A stretch of DNA of 64,000 nt, from the NCBI RefSeq assembly GCF_003182275.1, contig NZ_QGTR01000002.1, forward strand, positions 786,237 to 850,236, in the 5' to 3' direction. This stretch comes from Hoeflea marina (GTDB lineage Bacteria; Pseudomonadota; Alphaproteobacteria; Rhizobiales; Rhizobiaceae). How positions within the stretch are numbered: the first letter of the stretch is position 1; each line of letters opens with the position of its first letter. The notes beneath the pieces are model-generated. The model had not been told where the DNA came from. It searched no databases and worked only from the letters and a program-made list of their open reading frames with translations. The translations under genes and the position numbers were made by a program. Of this stretch, positions 1 through 14,753 are shown piece after piece.

Positions 1-1
1 G

Positions 2-592
2 ATCGTCACCTTCCTCGCCCTCGGCACGACCCCGCCGGTTCTGCCGATGGCCCGCACCACGCCCTATATCAGCCTGCTGCTCGACCAGTGGATCAAGTAT
101 TCGGTGACCGCCGATGCCGACTTCGATTCGCTGTCGCTCGATCCGGAAAGCCCCGGCGCCTGGGCGATGCGGATCAGCGAACTGAGCACCCTCCTCGACA
201 CGGCAGTCGATCTCGACCGCTTCGCCGCCAACGGCGGCAAGCTCCTGCTCGCCCACGGCCTGTCGGACGTGCTCGTCAGCACAAGGGCCACGCAGCAATA
301 TTATCTCAGGCTGCAGAGCCGCATGATGCCGGAGACCGTCGACGACTTCGCCCGATACTACGAGGTGCCTGGCTATGGCCACGCGGTCAGTTCCGACTTC
401 AACGCCGCATGGGATTCGCTGACGGCGCTGGAGAAATGGGTCGAGGAGAAGGAGGCCCCCGAAGATCAGGTGGTCACCGACACCGTCGGTGTGCCCGGCC
501 GCACGCGGCCGCTGTGCGACTATCCCGGTTGGCCGCGCTATGCGGGGACCGGCGACGTCGATGACGCAGCATCCTTCGAATGCGTCAACTGA
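2..592 (+). CDS. Tannase/feruloyl esterase family protein, C-terminal part (gene starts before the window)
   Basis: The frame is open to the left edge, so this is the last ~196 residues of a longer protein; the first ATG inside (47) is not the true start. The family (alpha/beta hydrolases cleaving galloyl or feruloyl esters, usually exported) is recognised from the C-terminal block: GGKLLLAHGLSDVLVS carries the catalytic Asp, PGYGHAVSS the catalytic His, followed by the conserved DSLTALEKWVE and GRTRPLCDYPGWPRY stretches and the family's cysteine-containing end. The catalytic Ser lies outside the window. Stop TGA is at 590-592. The substrate cannot be told from this fragment; another ester hydrolase of the same family is possible. 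Confidence 0.85.
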   Translation: MVTFLALGTTPPVLPMARTTPYISLLLDQWIKYSVTADADFDSLSLDPESPGAWAMRISELSTLLDTAVDLDRFAANGGKLLLAHGLSDVLVSTRATQQYYLRLQSRMMPETVDDFARYYEVPGYGHAVSSDFNAAWDSLTALEKWVEEKEAPEDQVVTDTVGVPGRTRPLCDYPGWPRYAGTGDVDDAASFECVN

Positions 593-834
593 CAGGCGGG
601 TCGGTGGCTTCCTTCCGGTCGACGGCGACCTGATCGCCGTCGCCCCTCCGGGGCCTGGGCCGGCGCCGTTGCGGACTATTTCCGGCGCAGCATGGCTTTC
701 TGCATCGGAAGCGGGCGCATTGCCCGCGAATGCGGCGGCCATTGCCCGCAAATTGGGCTAGCTATGCGTTTTTGGAATAGCTGCACTGCAACATGAACTC
801 TGTTCCAATTTCGCAGATGCAGTATGTTGTCCTT

Positions 835-992
835 ATCGAAGTGATGCACCTCCTCCCGCAAAGCTTCGATGATCAGACGGCCTTATCCTCCTCCCGAGGT
901 TGTCTGTAGGAATGGCGGCACTCCTCCTCCCAGCCGCTGTTCGGTTCTTCCGGAAAAAGCCTGCCGCACCTCCTCCCGCGGCGGGCTTTTTC
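835..992 (+). ncRNA. Putative sRNA: four tandem hairpins with loop-exposed anti-Shine-Dalgarno motif CCTCCTCCC
   Basis: Four copies of CCTCCTCCC start at 849, 887, 923 and 969, and each sits in the loop of a stem. Stem 1 pairs 835-841 with 864-870, plus an inner TGC/GCA pair. Stem 2 pairs 875-883 with 897-905, with two G-U pairs. Stem 3 pairs 914-919 with 933-938. Stem 4 pairs 956-967 with 978-989 and runs into a T-rich tail, so it doubles as the intrinsic terminator. Loop-exposed CCUCCUCCC is the signature of alphaproteobacterial anti-SD sRNAs (cuckoo RNAs in rhizobia, CcsR in Rhodobacter). Only the last hairpin has a T tract, so I infer one ~160-nt transcript rather than four. The 5' end and strand are inferred from the terminator; no promoter is clear. 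Confidence 0.8.
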
Positions 993-1541
993 TTTGGAAC
1001 CGGGAGCGGGGCCATCAGGCCGGCCGCGGCGCCGCTCCGTCGCATCGCCCCTCCATCCCGCGCGATGTCTTCCTCCCCGCCACAGCAGCAATGCATGCCC
1101 AAACCGCGCAGCGTCTCGGGATCACGGATGCATGCTGGAAAGAAGAAAGCCCGGTGGGTGGATCTGATTTCACGCACCGTGCCGCAAGGCGCCGCGGCAC
1201 GGCCTCCAGACCCGTTTGGCCGTTCCTCGACCTTCCCCGCTGTGATCGGTGGTCGGGCGGCATGCCGAACTGTGGTGATTGCGTGTCCGGCAATCCCCAG
1301 ATCGGACGAGTTGATCCTGGCGTTCATTGCGGGGATTAGGAGCATCGGTGAAATCCCGCCGTCTGCCTTGCGAAGACAAGAGCAGACGTCCCAGACGGAT
1401 CGGAATGCAACGGTATGTGGTTTGGACGAGAAGCGCGTCACCATCCTGGCTTGACCAGAACATGGCTTGCACCGGCCGTGGTTGTAGCGGCCATCAGCAC
1501 TGCGATGTCCGAATGCTGACGACCGGCACGAGGAGCCCGAT
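993..1541. other. Intergenic stretch without a recognisable gene
   Basis: About 550 bases between the sRNA terminator and the pyruvyl-transferase gene. Open frames on both strands here give arginine- and proline-rich translations without any family motif, so I treat them as chance frames. The preceding spacer 593-834, after the tannase stop, also holds nothing I can name apart from whatever promotes the sRNA. Confidence 0.5.
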
Positions 1542-2630
1542 GTGACGCTCAGGGCTGTCTTTCTCAATGACACCTCCGGCAATCACCATTTTGGATGCGC
1601 GCGGGTGATGCGCACCATCGAGGCAGCCCTCCAGGCGCGCGGGATCGAGGTGACGGCAAAGAGCCTGGTGCGCCAGGACTGGGAGCGTGACACAGCCTTT
1701 CTCAGGGCACTGGGTGCTGCCGACATCATCGTCATCAACGGGGAGGGCACCCTCCACCACGGATCACGCCATGCCGAGAAACTGCTCCGGGTCGTCCGTC
1801 ATCCGAACCGGAAAAGCATACCGGTCGTCGTCCTGAATGCGCTTTTCCAGGACAACCCGCCGGAGTGGGATCATCTTCTCGCCGGGATGTCGCTGATTTC
1901 GGTGCGCGACTCCAGGAGCTTCGCGGAGCTGAAAGGCCGCTATCCCGGTGAGCTTCACCAGACGCTGGATTTCTCCCTTTACGAACCTTTCGTGGCCGGC
2001 AGCAGTGTGGAGCGGACATCACTGATTGTCGGAGACTCGGTTTTCACGGATGTCACCGAGGAACTGGCGACGCTGTCCGACAAGTCGGCCGCGGACATAT
2101 TTCTGCCAATTGTCAGGACCATCAAGAGTTCCAGGCCGCAGCTGTCCCCCGCCAGGCGAAGGATCAGGGAGGCAGTCATCTTCATGCACCGGATTGTGTT
2201 CGGGTTGCGCCACCCGAAGGCCCGGTTTTGTCAAGATGAGTTCGACTATTTGACTGAGCTTTCGAAAGGAGAGCTCCATGTCACCGGCCGCTTTCATTCG
2301 GTCTGTTTCTCCTTGCTGACCTTGACGCCGTTTCTGGCCCTGAGTTCGAATTCCTGGAAGGTCGAGGCCCTGATCGAGGATCTTGGATTGTCGTCCGACC
2401 GCCTGATGGCGCTGAAGGATATCCGCCAGGCGATCGATGGCTCGGGCATGCATGGGTTTTCCGATGCGGAGCTGCTGGCAATCGAGAATGGCCTTGAAGG
2501 GAACAGAAGAGCGATCAGTCGCGTTTTTGATCGCGTCGCGGAACTCGCGGCCGGAGATGAAGCCCGGAAGATTTCATCATTGGACAGTCAATCGGGCCGA
2601 ATGGCCGCCCGGAAACTGGCGCCGTCCTGA
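1542..2630 (+). CDS. Polysaccharide pyruvyl transferase family protein
   Basis: 362 residues. The family transfers pyruvate from phosphoenolpyruvate to a sugar of a surface polysaccharide, or acts as a related glycan enzyme. Visible family blocks are the N-terminal DTSGNHHFGCARVM (nucleotide-fold start, residues 10-23), INGEGTLHH (65-73), SVRDSRSFAEL, and the C-terminal GRFHSVCFSLL followed by SSNSWKVEALIEDLGL, typical of the WcaK/CsaB-like fold. No membrane segment or signal is seen, which fits a cytoplasmic enzyme. It opens a run of glycan genes on the same strand; the GT25 gene begins 28 bases after its stop. Acceptor sugar unknown. Confidence 0.75.
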   Translation: MTLRAVFLNDTSGNHHFGCARVMRTIEAALQARGIEVTAKSLVRQDWERDTAFLRALGAADIIVINGEGTLHHGSRHAEKLLRVVRHPNRKSIPVVVLNALFQDNPPEWDHLLAGMSLISVRDSRSFAELKGRYPGELHQTLDFSLYEPFVAGSSVERTSLIVGDSVFTDVTEELATLSDKSAADIFLPIVRTIKSSRPQLSPARRRIREAVIFMHRIVFGLRHPKARFCQDEFDYLTELSKGELHVTGRFHSVCFSLLTLTPFLALSSNSWKVEALIEDLGLSSDRLMALKDIRQAIDGSGMHGFSDAELLAIENGLEGNRRAISRVFDRVAELAAGDEARKISSLDSQSGRMAARKLAPS

Positions 2631-2658
2631 TTTTTCAAAGCATCAGAAGGCATATCGC

Positions 2659-3384
2659 ATGGATTTCTACATCATTCATCTAGAGCGGGCGCGGCAGCGC
2701 CGAGCCAATGTCGACAGGCTCGCGAGGACCCTGCCAGGCCGGGTGAAGGTGATTGAAGCCGTCGATGCCTCGCAACTGACCGACGACGAGGCCGGAAGGC
2801 ATCACTGCAACGCCCGTCATCTGCCCCGCTACCCTTTCCGCATGCGACGCACGGAGGTTGCCTGTTTCCTCAGCCACAGGCTCGCGTGGAGCCAAATAGC
2901 CCGGGCGGACGGTTCCTTTGCCATGGTGCTTGAGGACGACTGCGCGATTGATCCGGCGGTGTTCGAGCGGGCCCTCGCTCTGGCCACATCGGTTGCCTCG
3001 GAAGACGACTTCATCCGCTTTCCAACCTCCCTGCGCGAAACACCGCTCCATGTCCTCAAACGCGACGGGGAGTTCTCGGTGTTCCAGCCCAGGCATTGCG
3101 GTCTGGGAATGCGGGCCCAGCTTGTCGGCAGATCCGCGGCGCGGCTGCTGCTGGATGCAACGGAAACCTTCGATCGTCCCGTCGACACCACGCTTCAGAT
3201 GACCTGGGCCTGCTTGCGCGGGATCTCCACGGCCTGGCCATCGGGTGTCAGCGATATTTCGAACGAGCTGGGCGGCTCGACGATCGGCTTCGACAAGACG
3301 CTGGCGGAGCAGGTCCATCATGAACTGGCCCGTCCACCCTACAGGCTCGCGATCAATCTGCTTGGCAGCTGGCACGCCCGATGA
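2659..3384 (+). CDS. Glycosyltransferase family 25 (LPS/LOS biosynthesis type)
   Basis: 241 residues. The start at 2659 is chosen because it has an AGAAGG ribosome site 8 bases upstream and begins MDFYIIHLERARQRR, the classic GT25 N-terminus (short strand, then a basic region). ACFLSHRLAW (68-77) and AMVLEDDCAIDP (88-99) are the GT25 core motifs; the LEDD acidic cluster is expected to bind the metal-nucleotide sugar. GT25 enzymes usually add galactose or a related sugar to lipooligosaccharide or capsule on the cytoplasmic side of the membrane. The stop overlaps the next gene's start (ATGA at 3381-3384), so the two are probably translationally coupled. Confidence 0.8.
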   Translation: MDFYIIHLERARQRRANVDRLARTLPGRVKVIEAVDASQLTDDEAGRHHCNARHLPRYPFRMRRTEVACFLSHRLAWSQIARADGSFAMVLEDDCAIDPAVFERALALATSVASEDDFIRFPTSLRETPLHVLKRDGEFSVFQPRHCGLGMRAQLVGRSAARLLLDATETFDRPVDTTLQMTWACLRGISTAWPSGVSDISNELGGSTIGFDKTLAEQVHHELARPPYRLAINLLGSWHAR

Positions 3385-3995
3385 AGACGGTGGCGATCGT
3401 CGGCAACGGGCCTTTGGAGGAGGCCGACAAGCGCTTTGTCGGCGCGGCGGACATCGTGACCCGCTTCAACCTGGTGCCCCGGGAGCATCTCGCCCTGTCG
3501 GACCGGACCGACGAGCATTTCCTGTCGTGCTCATCCAAGCAGGTGGGCGACTATCTGGCAGCGGGCAGCTACGAATCCGATCCCTGCTTCCGCAACGCCG
3601 GGCGGATCGTCCTGCCCTACCATCCCGGCATCATCGCTGCCTGCATGCCGCAGCCTTCGTGGCTTTCCCGCCTCAAGGGCCGGCGCGCCGACTGGACATC
3701 CGTCTGCGAGCGCGCCGCCGCCCGTTTCGGCAAGCAACTGGTCATTCTCACTGAGGAGGACTATCGGTCTGCATGCCGGGCCCTCGGCATCGGCGGCGAG
3801 GGCCGCGATTTCTACCCGAGCAGCGGCTATCTTGCAGTCATGCGGGCGCTGAAGATCTATCAGCCGTCGATGCACCGGATTCACCTGTTGGGTTTCGGCT
3901 TCCAGGGATGGAAGCGGCACCCCTGGCCGGCGGAGGAGGCAGCCATTCGCGCCCTGCATGCGCAGGACAGGCTGTCGCTGCATGCCGTTGCCTGA
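3381..3995 (+). CDS. Glycosyltransferase family 29 (sialyltransferase-like) protein
   Basis: 204 residues, overlapping the GT25 gene by 4 bases. Motifs resemble GT29: VAIVGNGP (4-11), DIVTRFN (24-30, the L-sialylmotif region), PSSGYLAVMRAL around 145-156 (S-motif-like) and a final GFGFQGWKRHPWPAEE with His and Glu in the spacing of the VS motif. GT29 was defined on eukaryotic sialyltransferases; bacterial members exist but mostly lack a known donor. No CMP-sialic acid synthesis genes are present in the window, so a donor other than sialic acid is possible. No membrane anchor is seen. Probably acts with the GT25 enzyme on the same glycan. Confidence 0.7.
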   Translation: MKTVAIVGNGPLEEADKRFVGAADIVTRFNLVPREHLALSDRTDEHFLSCSSKQVGDYLAAGSYESDPCFRNAGRIVLPYHPGIIAACMPQPSWLSRLKGRRADWTSVCERAAARFGKQLVILTEEDYRSACRALGIGGEGRDFYPSSGYLAVMRALKIYQPSMHRIHLLGFGFQGWKRHPWPAEEAAIRALHAQDRLSLHAVA

Positions 3996-4229
3996 GATAC
4001 AGCCATAGGGCGACCGATCGCAGCGGTCCGGGCCGCGAGGTGCAGAGACAGGCTCGGACAAGCTCGGCGACTCATGCTCACACTCGGAATGATGGTCGGG
4101 CATCGGTGATTCTCCGGCCTGCAGGGGTTCTTGCTCCTGATTGCGCAATTCGTCAGACGAGTGACCGTGCGTGCCTCATACCGAGATTTCTTGCCGGCGC
4201 ACCGCTCGGCCTTCGTCACAGGCTGCCCC

Positions 4230-5909
4230 ATGACCAGACTGCTCTTCGTCATTCCGCCCTATTTCAATGCCGCCGATTACATCGACAAGGTTCGCAATGC
4301 GGTGCTGCCCGCCTTCACCATTCCCTATGGCATCCTGTCGATGGAGACCTATCTCAAGGCCAATTGCGAGACCGCGGTGGAGATGCGGCTGGTCGATCTC
4401 AACGTGACGCTGAAGGCACTGGTCGAGGAGGGGCGAGCCGAGCACCACGAGGCGATCTTTGCCGCCGAACTCGCTTCCATCCTCGAAGATTTCAAGCCGG
4501 ATATCGTCGGCGTTTCTGCCTTGTTCAATTCCTCCTTCCGCTACATCCAGTCGCTGGTCGCCACCGTGAAGGCGCATGACGACTCGATCCTGACCATTGC
4601 CGGCGGTGGTCTGCCGTCCGCCGCCCACGCGATGATGCTGGAGCGCTGCCCCGGTCTTGACGCCATCTGCAAGGGGGAGGGTGAGCGACCGCTGCAGGTC
4701 CTGCTCGATGCCGAGGATCGCGACCTCGTGCTTGCCGACCACAAGTCCTGGGTGACGCGCGAGGGCGTGGCGCGCGGCAAGGTGCCCGCGCATGATTTCA
4801 TCGACAATCTGGACGACATCCCGCAGCTCAATTACGGGATCGTCGATCTCAGTCACTACAACAACCGCTCCATCGACAAGCGCTACGCCACCGAGCCGCG
4901 CCGCGAGATGGCCATCCACACCTCGCGCGGCTGTCCGTTCCTCTGCGTCTTCTGCTCCAACCCGTCGCTGCACGGCCGCACCGTGCGCTTCATGTCGATC
5001 GACCGCGTGGTCGAGGACGTGCGCCGCATGCGCGATGAGTTCGGCATGACGGTGCTGATGGTCGAGGACGATCATTTCTTCCAGGACAAGGAACGTGCCA
5101 AGCGGCTGCTGGCCGCCCTTGCCGATCTCGGCGTGCGGCTCGAATTCCCCAACGGAGTCGCCGTCTACGCCATCGATGAGGAAGTGGCCGAGCTGTTTGC
5201 GAAGGCCGGTGTGTCGGCCGTGGCGCTGGCGGTGGAATCGGGCTCCGACCATGTGCTCAACAATATCATCAAGAAGCCCTTGAAGAAGAAGCTGATCAAG
5301 CCGGCGGTCGAGGCGCTGCGCAAGTTCGGCGTCCGCAGCCATGTCTTCATCGTCGCGGGCCTTCCCGGCGAGGAGGACGAGCATCGCCAGGAAACGCTGG
5401 AGATGCTGCTCGACAACGGCTTCGACTGGACCCATGTCTATCTGGCGATTCCCATCTATGGCAGTCGCCTCTACGACATCTGCGTCGAGAACGGCTATCT
5501 CGAATCGGCCGACAACGACGATTTCGTCGCCACCAAGACGGTGTTGAAGATTCCTGGCCAGGACCCGAAGAAGCTCGAGGCCTATGCCTATGAGACCCAG
5601 TTGCGCGTCAATTTCATCGAGAACTACAACATGCGCACCGGCCGCTACGACGTGGCCATCCCCTACATGAAGAATGTCTGCGACAAGTATCCCGACCATG
5701 CGCTCGGACATTACTATCTTGCCCGCTGCTACGCCGCCAGCGGCGAGCAGGAACTCGCGGTCTCCCATGCGGCCACGGCGCTGGAAATCTTCGAGCGCGA
5801 CCCATGGTGGCGGGAACTCGCCGGCCGTCACGGGGTGGATTATGCCGACTGCCTGCCGTTGGCTGGCGGAATGCCCGCATCCCCGCTCGCTCTCGCGGTC
5901 GGCGCCTGA
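4230..5909 (+). CDS. B12-binding-domain radical SAM protein with C-terminal tetratricopeptide-like region
   Basis: 559 residues. The start at 4230 is used because MTRLLFVIPPYF is the usual beginning of the cobalamin-binding Rossmann domain (1-170, with AGGGLP at 124-129 and CKGEGERPLQ at 147-156). The radical-SAM core follows with TSRGCPFLCVFC, the CxxxCxxC cluster at Cys235/239/242, and MVEDDHFF downstream. Residues ~490-540 look like one or two TPR repeats (HALGHYYLARCYAASGEQELA). The class performs methylations or C-C rearrangements on glycans, lipids or cofactors. A 234-base gap separates it from the GT29 gene. No subfamily can be assigned; a modification of the glycan made by its neighbours is an inference from position only. 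Confidence 0.75.
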   Translation: MTRLLFVIPPYFNAADYIDKVRNAVLPAFTIPYGILSMETYLKANCETAVEMRLVDLNVTLKALVEEGRAEHHEAIFAAELASILEDFKPDIVGVSALFNSSFRYIQSLVATVKAHDDSILTIAGGGLPSAAHAMMLERCPGLDAICKGEGERPLQVLLDAEDRDLVLADHKSWVTREGVARGKVPAHDFIDNLDDIPQLNYGIVDLSHYNNRSIDKRYATEPRREMAIHTSRGCPFLCVFCSNPSLHGRTVRFMSIDRVVEDVRRMRDEFGMTVLMVEDDHFFQDKERAKRLLAALADLGVRLEFPNGVAVYAIDEEVAELFAKAGVSAVALAVESGSDHVLNNIIKKPLKKKLIKPAVEALRKFGVRSHVFIVAGLPGEEDEHRQETLEMLLDNGFDWTHVYLAIPIYGSRLYDICVENGYLESADNDDFVATKTVLKIPGQDPKKLEAYAYETQLRVNFIENYNMRTGRYDVAIPYMKNVCDKYPDHALGHYYLARCYAASGEQELAVSHAATALEIFERDPWWRELAGRHGVDYADCLPLAGGMPASPLALAVGA

Positions 5910-13815: not shown

Positions 13816-14095
13816 GGCTGATCGTCCCTGTTGCGGAGAGAGTGTGGCTGTACCCGGCTTGTTTTTTGACCAAAAGATAAAACGCAAGATCGCCCTTGGC
13901 AACAGCGCTCCTCGATGTTCTGCACAATGTTGAGGCGAATTCGCATCTTGCCTCTCGGCTGGGCGGCCCCGGCCCGCGCCATGGTGAGCGGCCGGGCTCC
14001 GGGGCGCCGGTTGCTTGACGCTGCGTCGGCGGTTTTCCCGTCTTTCGCGCCAGCGGAGACTTGCCAGGAGAATGGCTTTGCGCCAGTGTCGCCCC

Positions 14096-14234
14096 GTTCT
14101 CAGGGCGGGGTGCAACTCCCCACCGGCGGTATGCTGCGCAAGCGGCGAGCCCGCGAGCGCCCTTCCTTCGGGCAGGGGTCAGCAGACCAGGTGCGATGCC
14201 TGGGCCGACGGTCACAGTCCGGATGAGAGAGAAC
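14096..14234 (+). promoter_or_regulatory. FMN riboswitch (RFN element)
   Basis: The conserved RFN blocks are all present in order: closing stem GTTCTC (14096-14101) with GAGAAC (14229-14234), CAGGGCGGGGTGCAA, CCCCACCGGCGGTA, GCCCGCGAGCG, GGTCAGCAGACC, GGTGCGATGCC and GCCGACGGTCACAGTCCGGATG. It lies 84 bases before ribH2. No T-tract terminator follows; a short stem (CGCC/GGCG near 14250-14265) lies between the aptamer and the AAAGGAG ribosome site, so control of translation is more likely than attenuation. Confidence 0.96.
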
Positions 14235-14318
14235 GCGCCGAAACGGACGCCAGCGATGGCGGACGCGCCGGCTCGTGATCGCCTTGGGTGACGTGTCTGT
14301 TGCTGAAAGGAGATCCAA

Positions 14319-14753
14319 ATGACACACACCCGCTATGCATTCATCAAGGCCAACTGGCACGCCGAGATCGTCGATCAGGCGCTCGCCGGCTTTTGCGAAC
14401 TCATTCCCGCCTCCCAGGTCGATGTCTTCGACGTGCCGGGCGCCTTCGAGATGCCGCTGCTTGCCCGTGACCTCGCGCAATCGGGCCGTTATGGCGCTGT
14501 TGCCGCGGCAGCTTTCGTCGTTGATGGTGGAATTTACCGCCACGATTTCGTGGCCCAGGCGGTGGTCGACGGGCTGATGCGCGCCGGCATGGATTCGGGC
14601 ATTCCGGTGCTCTCGGTGTCGCTGACCCCGCACCATTACCAGGAGACAGATCACCACAGGGCGATCTACAAGGCGCATTTCGTCGAGAAGGGCCGCGAGG
14701 CCGCCCGTGCGGCCCTCATGATCGGCAGGACCCGCGCCGCACTCGCCGCCTGA
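14319..14753 (+). CDS. ribH2: 6,7-dimethyl-8-ribityllumazine synthase, type II (RibH2)
   Basis: 144 residues. It condenses 5-amino-6-ribitylamino-uracil with 3,4-dihydroxy-2-butanone phosphate, the penultimate riboflavin step. The sequence follows Brucella/Mesorhizobium RibH2 rather than RibH1: FIKANWHAEIVDQAL (9-23), VFDVPGAFEMPL (44-55), AFVVDGGIYRHDFVA and SVSLTPHHYQE with the catalytic His pair. RibH2-type enzymes form decamers and in this order are commonly the FMN-riboswitch-controlled isozyme. The ribosome site AAAGGAG is 6 bases before the ATG. It stands alone, not in a rib operon, consistent with a flavin-repressed accessory copy. Confidence 0.95.
   Translation: MTHTRYAFIKANWHAEIVDQALAGFCELIPASQVDVFDVPGAFEMPLLARDLAQSGRYGAVAAAAFVVDGGIYRHDFVAQAVVDGLMRAGMDSGIPVLSVSLTPHHYQETDHHRAIYKAHFVEKGREAARAALMIGRTRAALAA

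Follow-up and report, generated by a model that had tools for sequence, protein, structure and literature searches.

A SmelA099/SmrA6-like small RNA with four anti-Shine-Dalgarno hairpins in Hoeflea marina

The Cuckoo RNA family of Reinkensmeier and Giegerich (2015) is reportedly, to judge by its title and by the texts that cite it, a family of RNAs that display anti-Shine-Dalgarno motifs in hairpin loops. The ar14 family has NfeR1 of S. meliloti as its founding member, and its RNAs are described as having three hairpins, every one of which bears an ultraconserved CCUCCUCCC (PMC10746234). Two copies of the motif are reported in SmelC201, three in SmelA075 and four in SmelA099, and a 2011 publication grouped the relatives of SmelA099 into a family (RFMSmelA099) of four hairpins with CCUCCUCCC loops (PMC3927594). 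SmelA099 itself was reported from deep sequencing as a trans-encoded sRNA of 160 nt on the minus strand of pSymA (1328175-1328334; PMC2873474) and also appears in a table of PMC7143759. The CcsR1-4/RS0680a RNAs and the CIN1 locus of Rhodobacter carry anti-Shine-Dalgarno loop hairpins as well, in pairs, on RNAs that are processed out of a DUF1127 transcript (PMC3927594, PMC10253847).

The window analysed here is a 64-kb stretch of the Hoeflea marina genome, to which all coordinates refer unless a genome position is given. A motif scan located four exact copies of CCTCCTCCC (849-857, 887-895, 923-931 and 969-977), all on the plus strand, and the motif is absent from the rest of the window on either strand. 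Shuffled versions of the window held 0.91 copies on average, with four or more in 1 of 100 shuffles, and by a rough estimate that rate would yield approximately 1e-10 clusters of four within some 130 nt. The bounds of the RNA, 834-994, were set by alignment to the published S. meliloti SmelA099 interval and differ by no more than two nucleotides at either end from the 835-992 proposed in an earlier note on this DNA. The RNA and its parts are as follows.

834-994, plus strand: four-hairpin anti-Shine-Dalgarno sRNA, SmelA099/SmrA6 orthologue (SmelA099 alignment 133/163; covariance model R1, 169.8 bits; fold z -6.99)
834-871, plus strand: hairpin 1, loop CCTCCTCCC at 849-857, outside the Rfam ar14 model (fold; 10/10 modelled pairs changed on both sides in alignment A4)
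874-906, plus strand: hairpin 2, equivalent to ar14 hairpin 1, loop CCTCCTCCC at 887-895 (Rfam match, fold, covariation)
910-942, plus strand: hairpin 3, equivalent to ar14 hairpin 2, loop CCTCCTCCC at 923-931 (Rfam match, fold, covariation)
952-993, plus strand: hairpin 4 and terminator, loop CCTCCTCCC at 969-977, T run at 987-991; the most conserved stem (Rfam match, fold, covariation)
868-993, plus strand: match to Rfam RF02344 (ar14), 100.8 bits against a gathering score of 58.8

The minimum free energy and centroid folds of 834-994 agree on four separate hairpins in which every CCUCCUCCC is unpaired, with an extra 2-bp stem between hairpins 3 and 4. At -72.5 kcal/mol the fold is far more stable than the shuffle mean of -47.0 kcal/mol (z -6.99), and none of 200 shuffles was equally stable. 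The arrangement described in the earlier note, with one exact loop motif in each of four stems and a T tract behind the last stem only, is borne out by these folds and by the T run. That note also held that stems failing to covary among relatives would speak against an RNA, and they covary in both of the alignments used. Model R1 is a covariance model built from 21 four-hairpin homologues. Alignment A4 has 38 rows aligned to R1, comprising the window and 37 homologues, of which 36 are non-window places scoring at least 105 bits with R1 in the family genomes and one comes from a genus genome; its members were identified by R1 itself, L242 among them coincides with L011, one of the sequences behind R1, and the alignment leans towards the model. 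In A4, 34 of the 42 pairs show changes on both sides, including 10/10 modelled pairs of hairpin 1, and 97.3% of cells are paired, against 37.6-45.1% when the partners are slid. Alignment A5 is a MAFFT alignment unfitted to R1, with 56 rows (55 distinct) drawn from 37 genome homologues, 18 plasmid homologues and the window; here 35 of 50 pairs are changed on both sides and 86.4% of cells are paired, against 35.7-50.8% when slid. Hairpin 1 shows double changes in 9/13 pairs of A5, and its outer three pairs, as folded in the window, lack conservation, with 42-46 of 55 rows unpaired there. Locus L034 was left out of A5, and L045 out of both A1 and A5, its cut-out by exact loops having stopped after the third loop because the fourth is inexact. 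A third alignment (A3, 80 rows) was set aside for covariation because most of its rows had been chosen by the exact hairpin-1 pattern and are hence invariant there. G-U pairs are frequent in the plus-strand stems of A4, which makes the plus strand the better fit as RNA. The stretch 834-994 is a real, conserved and structured sRNA.

The match to Rfam ar14 covers the complete model (1-123) well above the gathering cut-off. The earlier assignment to anti-Shine-Dalgarno sRNAs of the cuckoo/CcsR/ar14 kind was right. The model comprises three hairpins and therefore leaves out hairpin 1 of the window RNA, whose hairpins 2-4 each present an unpaired CCUCCUCCC as ar14 members do, with the fourth hairpin added upstream. 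Four other four-hairpin loci were tested, among them the counterpart of SmelA099 on pSymA of another S. meliloti strain (L043), and all four match ar14 only from hairpin 2 on. The Rfam model thus cuts off hairpin 1 of four-hairpin members in the window and in 4/4 others, which shifts their annotated 5' ends downstream by about 34-38 nt. The features of RFMSmelA099 are present in full, with four CCUCCUCCC loops and similarity over the entire length, hairpin 1 included; 133 of 163 columns are identical between the SmelA099 interval and 834-994, and SmelA099 carries all four motifs. SmelA099/SmrA6 (SMa6570) of pSymA resembles the window RNA in its four CCUCCUCCC hairpins, its near-equal length and its upstream region, and differs in belonging to another genome and in the diverged stems of hairpins 2 and 3. 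The ar14 type member NfeR1/SmelC397 shares the loop motif and a similar promoter box, whereas the window RNA has one extra 5' hairpin. The CcsR and CIN1 RNAs share the anti-Shine-Dalgarno loops, but the window RNA has four hairpins rather than two, probably its own promoter, and no DUF1127 gene was found alongside it. By sequence comparison the window RNA is an orthologue of SmelA099/SmrA6 and a new member of the four-hairpin branch already published within a known family. The earlier note had expected about two hairpins per RNA; ar14 has three and RFMSmelA099 four, so that surprise at the number was unfounded, the four-hairpin form having already been described. An apparent oddity is thereby settled as a known RNA family, with covariation support added for the extra hairpin, and the coexistence of two-, three- and four-loop versions poses a small but testable question.

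Upstream, the neighbour is the end of a tannase/feruloyl esterase gene. Five ORFs of at least 25 aa overlap 593-835 and none has a Pfam match (four searched at E 0.1, one at E 0.001), in keeping with the earlier remark that no host gene was recognised. A DUF1127 gene beside the RNA, as in the CcsR/CIN1 arrangement, was not found among six ORFs upstream or overlapping. A 249-aa ORF on the minus strand runs across the locus (833-1582), lacks a Pfam match and was taken as non-coding. Downstream, at 1542-5909 on the plus strand, genes for a polysaccharide pyruvyl transferase, a family-25 glycosyltransferase, a Pfam-less ORF and a radical SAM/B12-binding protein stand in a row, which looks like a polysaccharide or glycan cluster. 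Three upstream elements were noted on the strand of the RNA.

765-778, plus strand: LsrB-like box TGCG-N6-GAAT (consensus TGCA-N6-GCAT), at -69 to -56 from the inferred start; 2/8 mismatches, weak by itself
780-789, plus strand: conserved promoter box GCTGCACTGC (GCTG[CG]N0-2TGC in 30/37 homologue upstreams and the window; consensus of 76 upstreams)
823-828, plus strand: probable -10 element TATGTT, placed by its position before the inferred start (GTAT..T conserved in 76 upstreams)

The consensus of 76 upstream regions consists of a GCAT-GCTGC-TGCA block and a GTAT element near -10. A simple scan of 1-3000 gave no consensus sigma-70 site, and no good -35 was seen upstream of the RNA. The sequence TGCA-N6-GCAT with at most two mismatches, starting at -76 to -64 of the model start, occurs in 34 of 37 homologues compared with approximately 6% of shuffled upstreams; 22 homologues have 0-1 mismatches, 12 have two and three have three. 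In NfeR1 the LsrB site is reported at -72 to -60 (PMC10746234). Regulation of the NfeR1 type further involves an NtrC site, TGC-N11-GCA, some 101-116 nt ahead of the start. By analogy, LsrB might control the window RNA too, which is only a guess because the window's own box has two of eight positions mismatched.

With a probability of roughly 85%, we read 834-994 as a stand-alone trans-acting sRNA of the ar14/cuckoo kind, in its four-hairpin form, that represses many mRNAs by pairing with their Shine-Dalgarno sites. For this we draw on the sequence, structure, covariation, orthology and conserved upstream region of the locus, and we infer expression, LsrB control and targets in Hoeflea marina. 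Transcription would start at a promoter of the RNA's own, immediately upstream, and end at hairpin 4. Each loop presents CCUCCUCCC, which copies the anti-Shine-Dalgarno sequence of the 16S rRNA. Such a copy is able to base-pair with mRNA Shine-Dalgarno sites in competition with the ribosome; the loops would engage the G-rich sites of many mRNAs and ribosome loading on these would be blocked, as reported for NfeR1. That relative is reported to repress ntrB and two ABC-transporter mRNAs by loop pairing, with redundancy among its three loops (PMC10746234). Most likely, by analogy, the window RNA acts in the same way, through pairing of loops with Shine-Dalgarno sequences and a block of translation.

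The earlier suggestion that the RNA could act on many mRNAs was right. Two other suggestions of the earlier note fit poorly. The loop reads in the sense of the 16S 3' end and so pairs with Shine-Dalgarno sites of mRNAs rather than with the ribosome's own anti-Shine-Dalgarno sequence, which speaks against titration of ribosomes. RsmA/CsrA binds GGA loops and CCUCCUCCC holds C and U only, which is a poor fit to an RsmA-like target. Both readings were rejected on these grounds. The stronger effect that the note proposed for four loops is conjectural; in NfeR1 the loops reportedly can stand in for one another (PMC10746234). Perfect complements of the 9-nt loop lie 3-11 nt before an ATG at nine places in the genome, against one for the pattern read backwards, and the 8-nt complement pattern gave 34 places against two. 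The candidate targets comprise exact 9-nt matches only. Three of the nine places open long ORFs with a Pfam family, predicted as an ABC solute-binding protein, a CBS-domain protein and a class-V aminotransferase, with the complement 4-6 nt before the ATG; five open ORFs of at most 73 aa and one opens an ORF of 418 aa with no Pfam match. The candidate ABC-type solute-binding protein belongs by sequence to the target class reported for NfeR1, which is no more than suggestive.

An alternative, which we consider unlikely, is that the four loops serve mainly as a sponge for a protein, such as a CcaF1-like DUF1127 RNA-binding protein, and not for pairing with mRNAs. CcaF1 is reported to be involved in CcsR maturation (PMC10253847), DUF1127 is annotated upstream in 8 of the 12 annotated loci among 20 plasmid loci fetched, and 30 of 72 testable RNAs (counting the window) have a DUF1127-like motif in the 700 nt ahead of them. 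Set against this, the window copy has no adjoining DUF1127 gene that could be found, and NfeR1 is reported to repress by base pairing through loops of this kind (PMC10746234), as the pairing reading would have it.

The distribution of the RNA bears on whether the window copy is functional. A search of 151 family genomes with R1 returned 37 places of at least 105 bits in 18 genomes, own genome included, the next score being 97.9; four-hairpin places were counted among the matches listed at or above 105 bits, below which diverged RNAs may be missed. Two of 18 genus genomes, one of them the window's own, have strong matches (169.8 and 144.4 bits, followed by 67.3), so the four-hairpin RNA comes and goes. 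Four exact loops are present in 29 of the 37 genome homologues and three in the other 8. A second set of 79 RNAs was made up of the window and 78 of the 80 listed named-genome loci obtained with the exact hairpin-1 pattern (at least 119 stretches); among 82 matches, L128, L115 and the second piece of L092 fall outside this count. Four loops are found in 65 of these RNAs, three in 13 and two in one, the first loop being fixed by the selection. In plasmid loci the 8-base core CCTCCTCC occupies all four loops in 13 of 20, and at least one loop is not intact in the other seven. These counts show that four loops are usual in this branch and not obligatory.

Such patchiness could also mean that the window copy is a silent or decaying duplicate, kept by chance or brought by a mobile element, and a second ar14 copy in the same genome points the same way, as does the report that only one of the six S. 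meliloti loci of NfeR1 type was reliably detected by Northern blot (PMC7143759). We regard this as quite improbable, given that all four loops and stems are intact in the window and that the upstream boxes, one of them weak, are present. The second ar14 copy (L002 1354-1494, 1501-1629; G000:C1:965916-966044) has three hairpin motifs and sits directly behind a DUF1127 gene (PF06568, 1.5e-14), as in CIN1/CcsR loci. A further pair of CCTCCTCCC motifs spans 57 nt end to end at G000:C2:337957-338013 (L174); it may represent a two-hairpin relative or a coincidence. In 16 of 17 other genus genomes, for example at G001:C1:1178441-1178585, ar14 gives a weak hit some 145 nt long (33.6-45.6 bits, under the cut-off) at a different place from the strong match. 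None is listed for the window's genome, and these hits may come from a diverged relative whose layout is longer.

A reading in which the window RNA runs on the opposite strand, with GGGAGGAGG loops that might bind an RsmA/CsrA-like protein, is scarcely credible. The reverse complement does fold (-62.5 kcal/mol) and a simple scan gave a weak minus-strand terminator site at 982-963, but that fold is only weakly better than shuffles (z -1.93; 8/200 equally stable), the G-U pairs would turn into A-C mismatches, and the Rfam match and T run lie on the plus strand, in the sense in which SmelA099 is reported (PMC2873474).

Plasmid records matching the query 740-1000 numbered 484, 76 of them with a single place spanning 80% or more of the query, and 270 of the 484 are typed as conjugative, a raw count that has no baseline and includes partial matches. 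The hairpin-1 pattern gave no match in viral contigs. Five plasmids from differently named organisms (L033, L034, L035, L038 and L051) share a run of 3'-5' exonuclease gene, DUF1127 gene and four-hairpin sRNA, in that order. From the conjugative records and this shared gene order, both circumstantial, one might speculate, with considerable doubt, that the four-hairpin form is a multivalent translation regulator spread by plasmids, by which conjugative replicons would adjust the translation of a new host, the extra loop allowing several mRNAs to be held at once. Elsewhere in the window, an FMN riboswitch at 14092-14238 on the plus strand (RF00050, 103.2 bits) has a lumazine synthase ORF behind it at 14319-14753 (PF00885, 2.8e-29), an ordinary arrangement.
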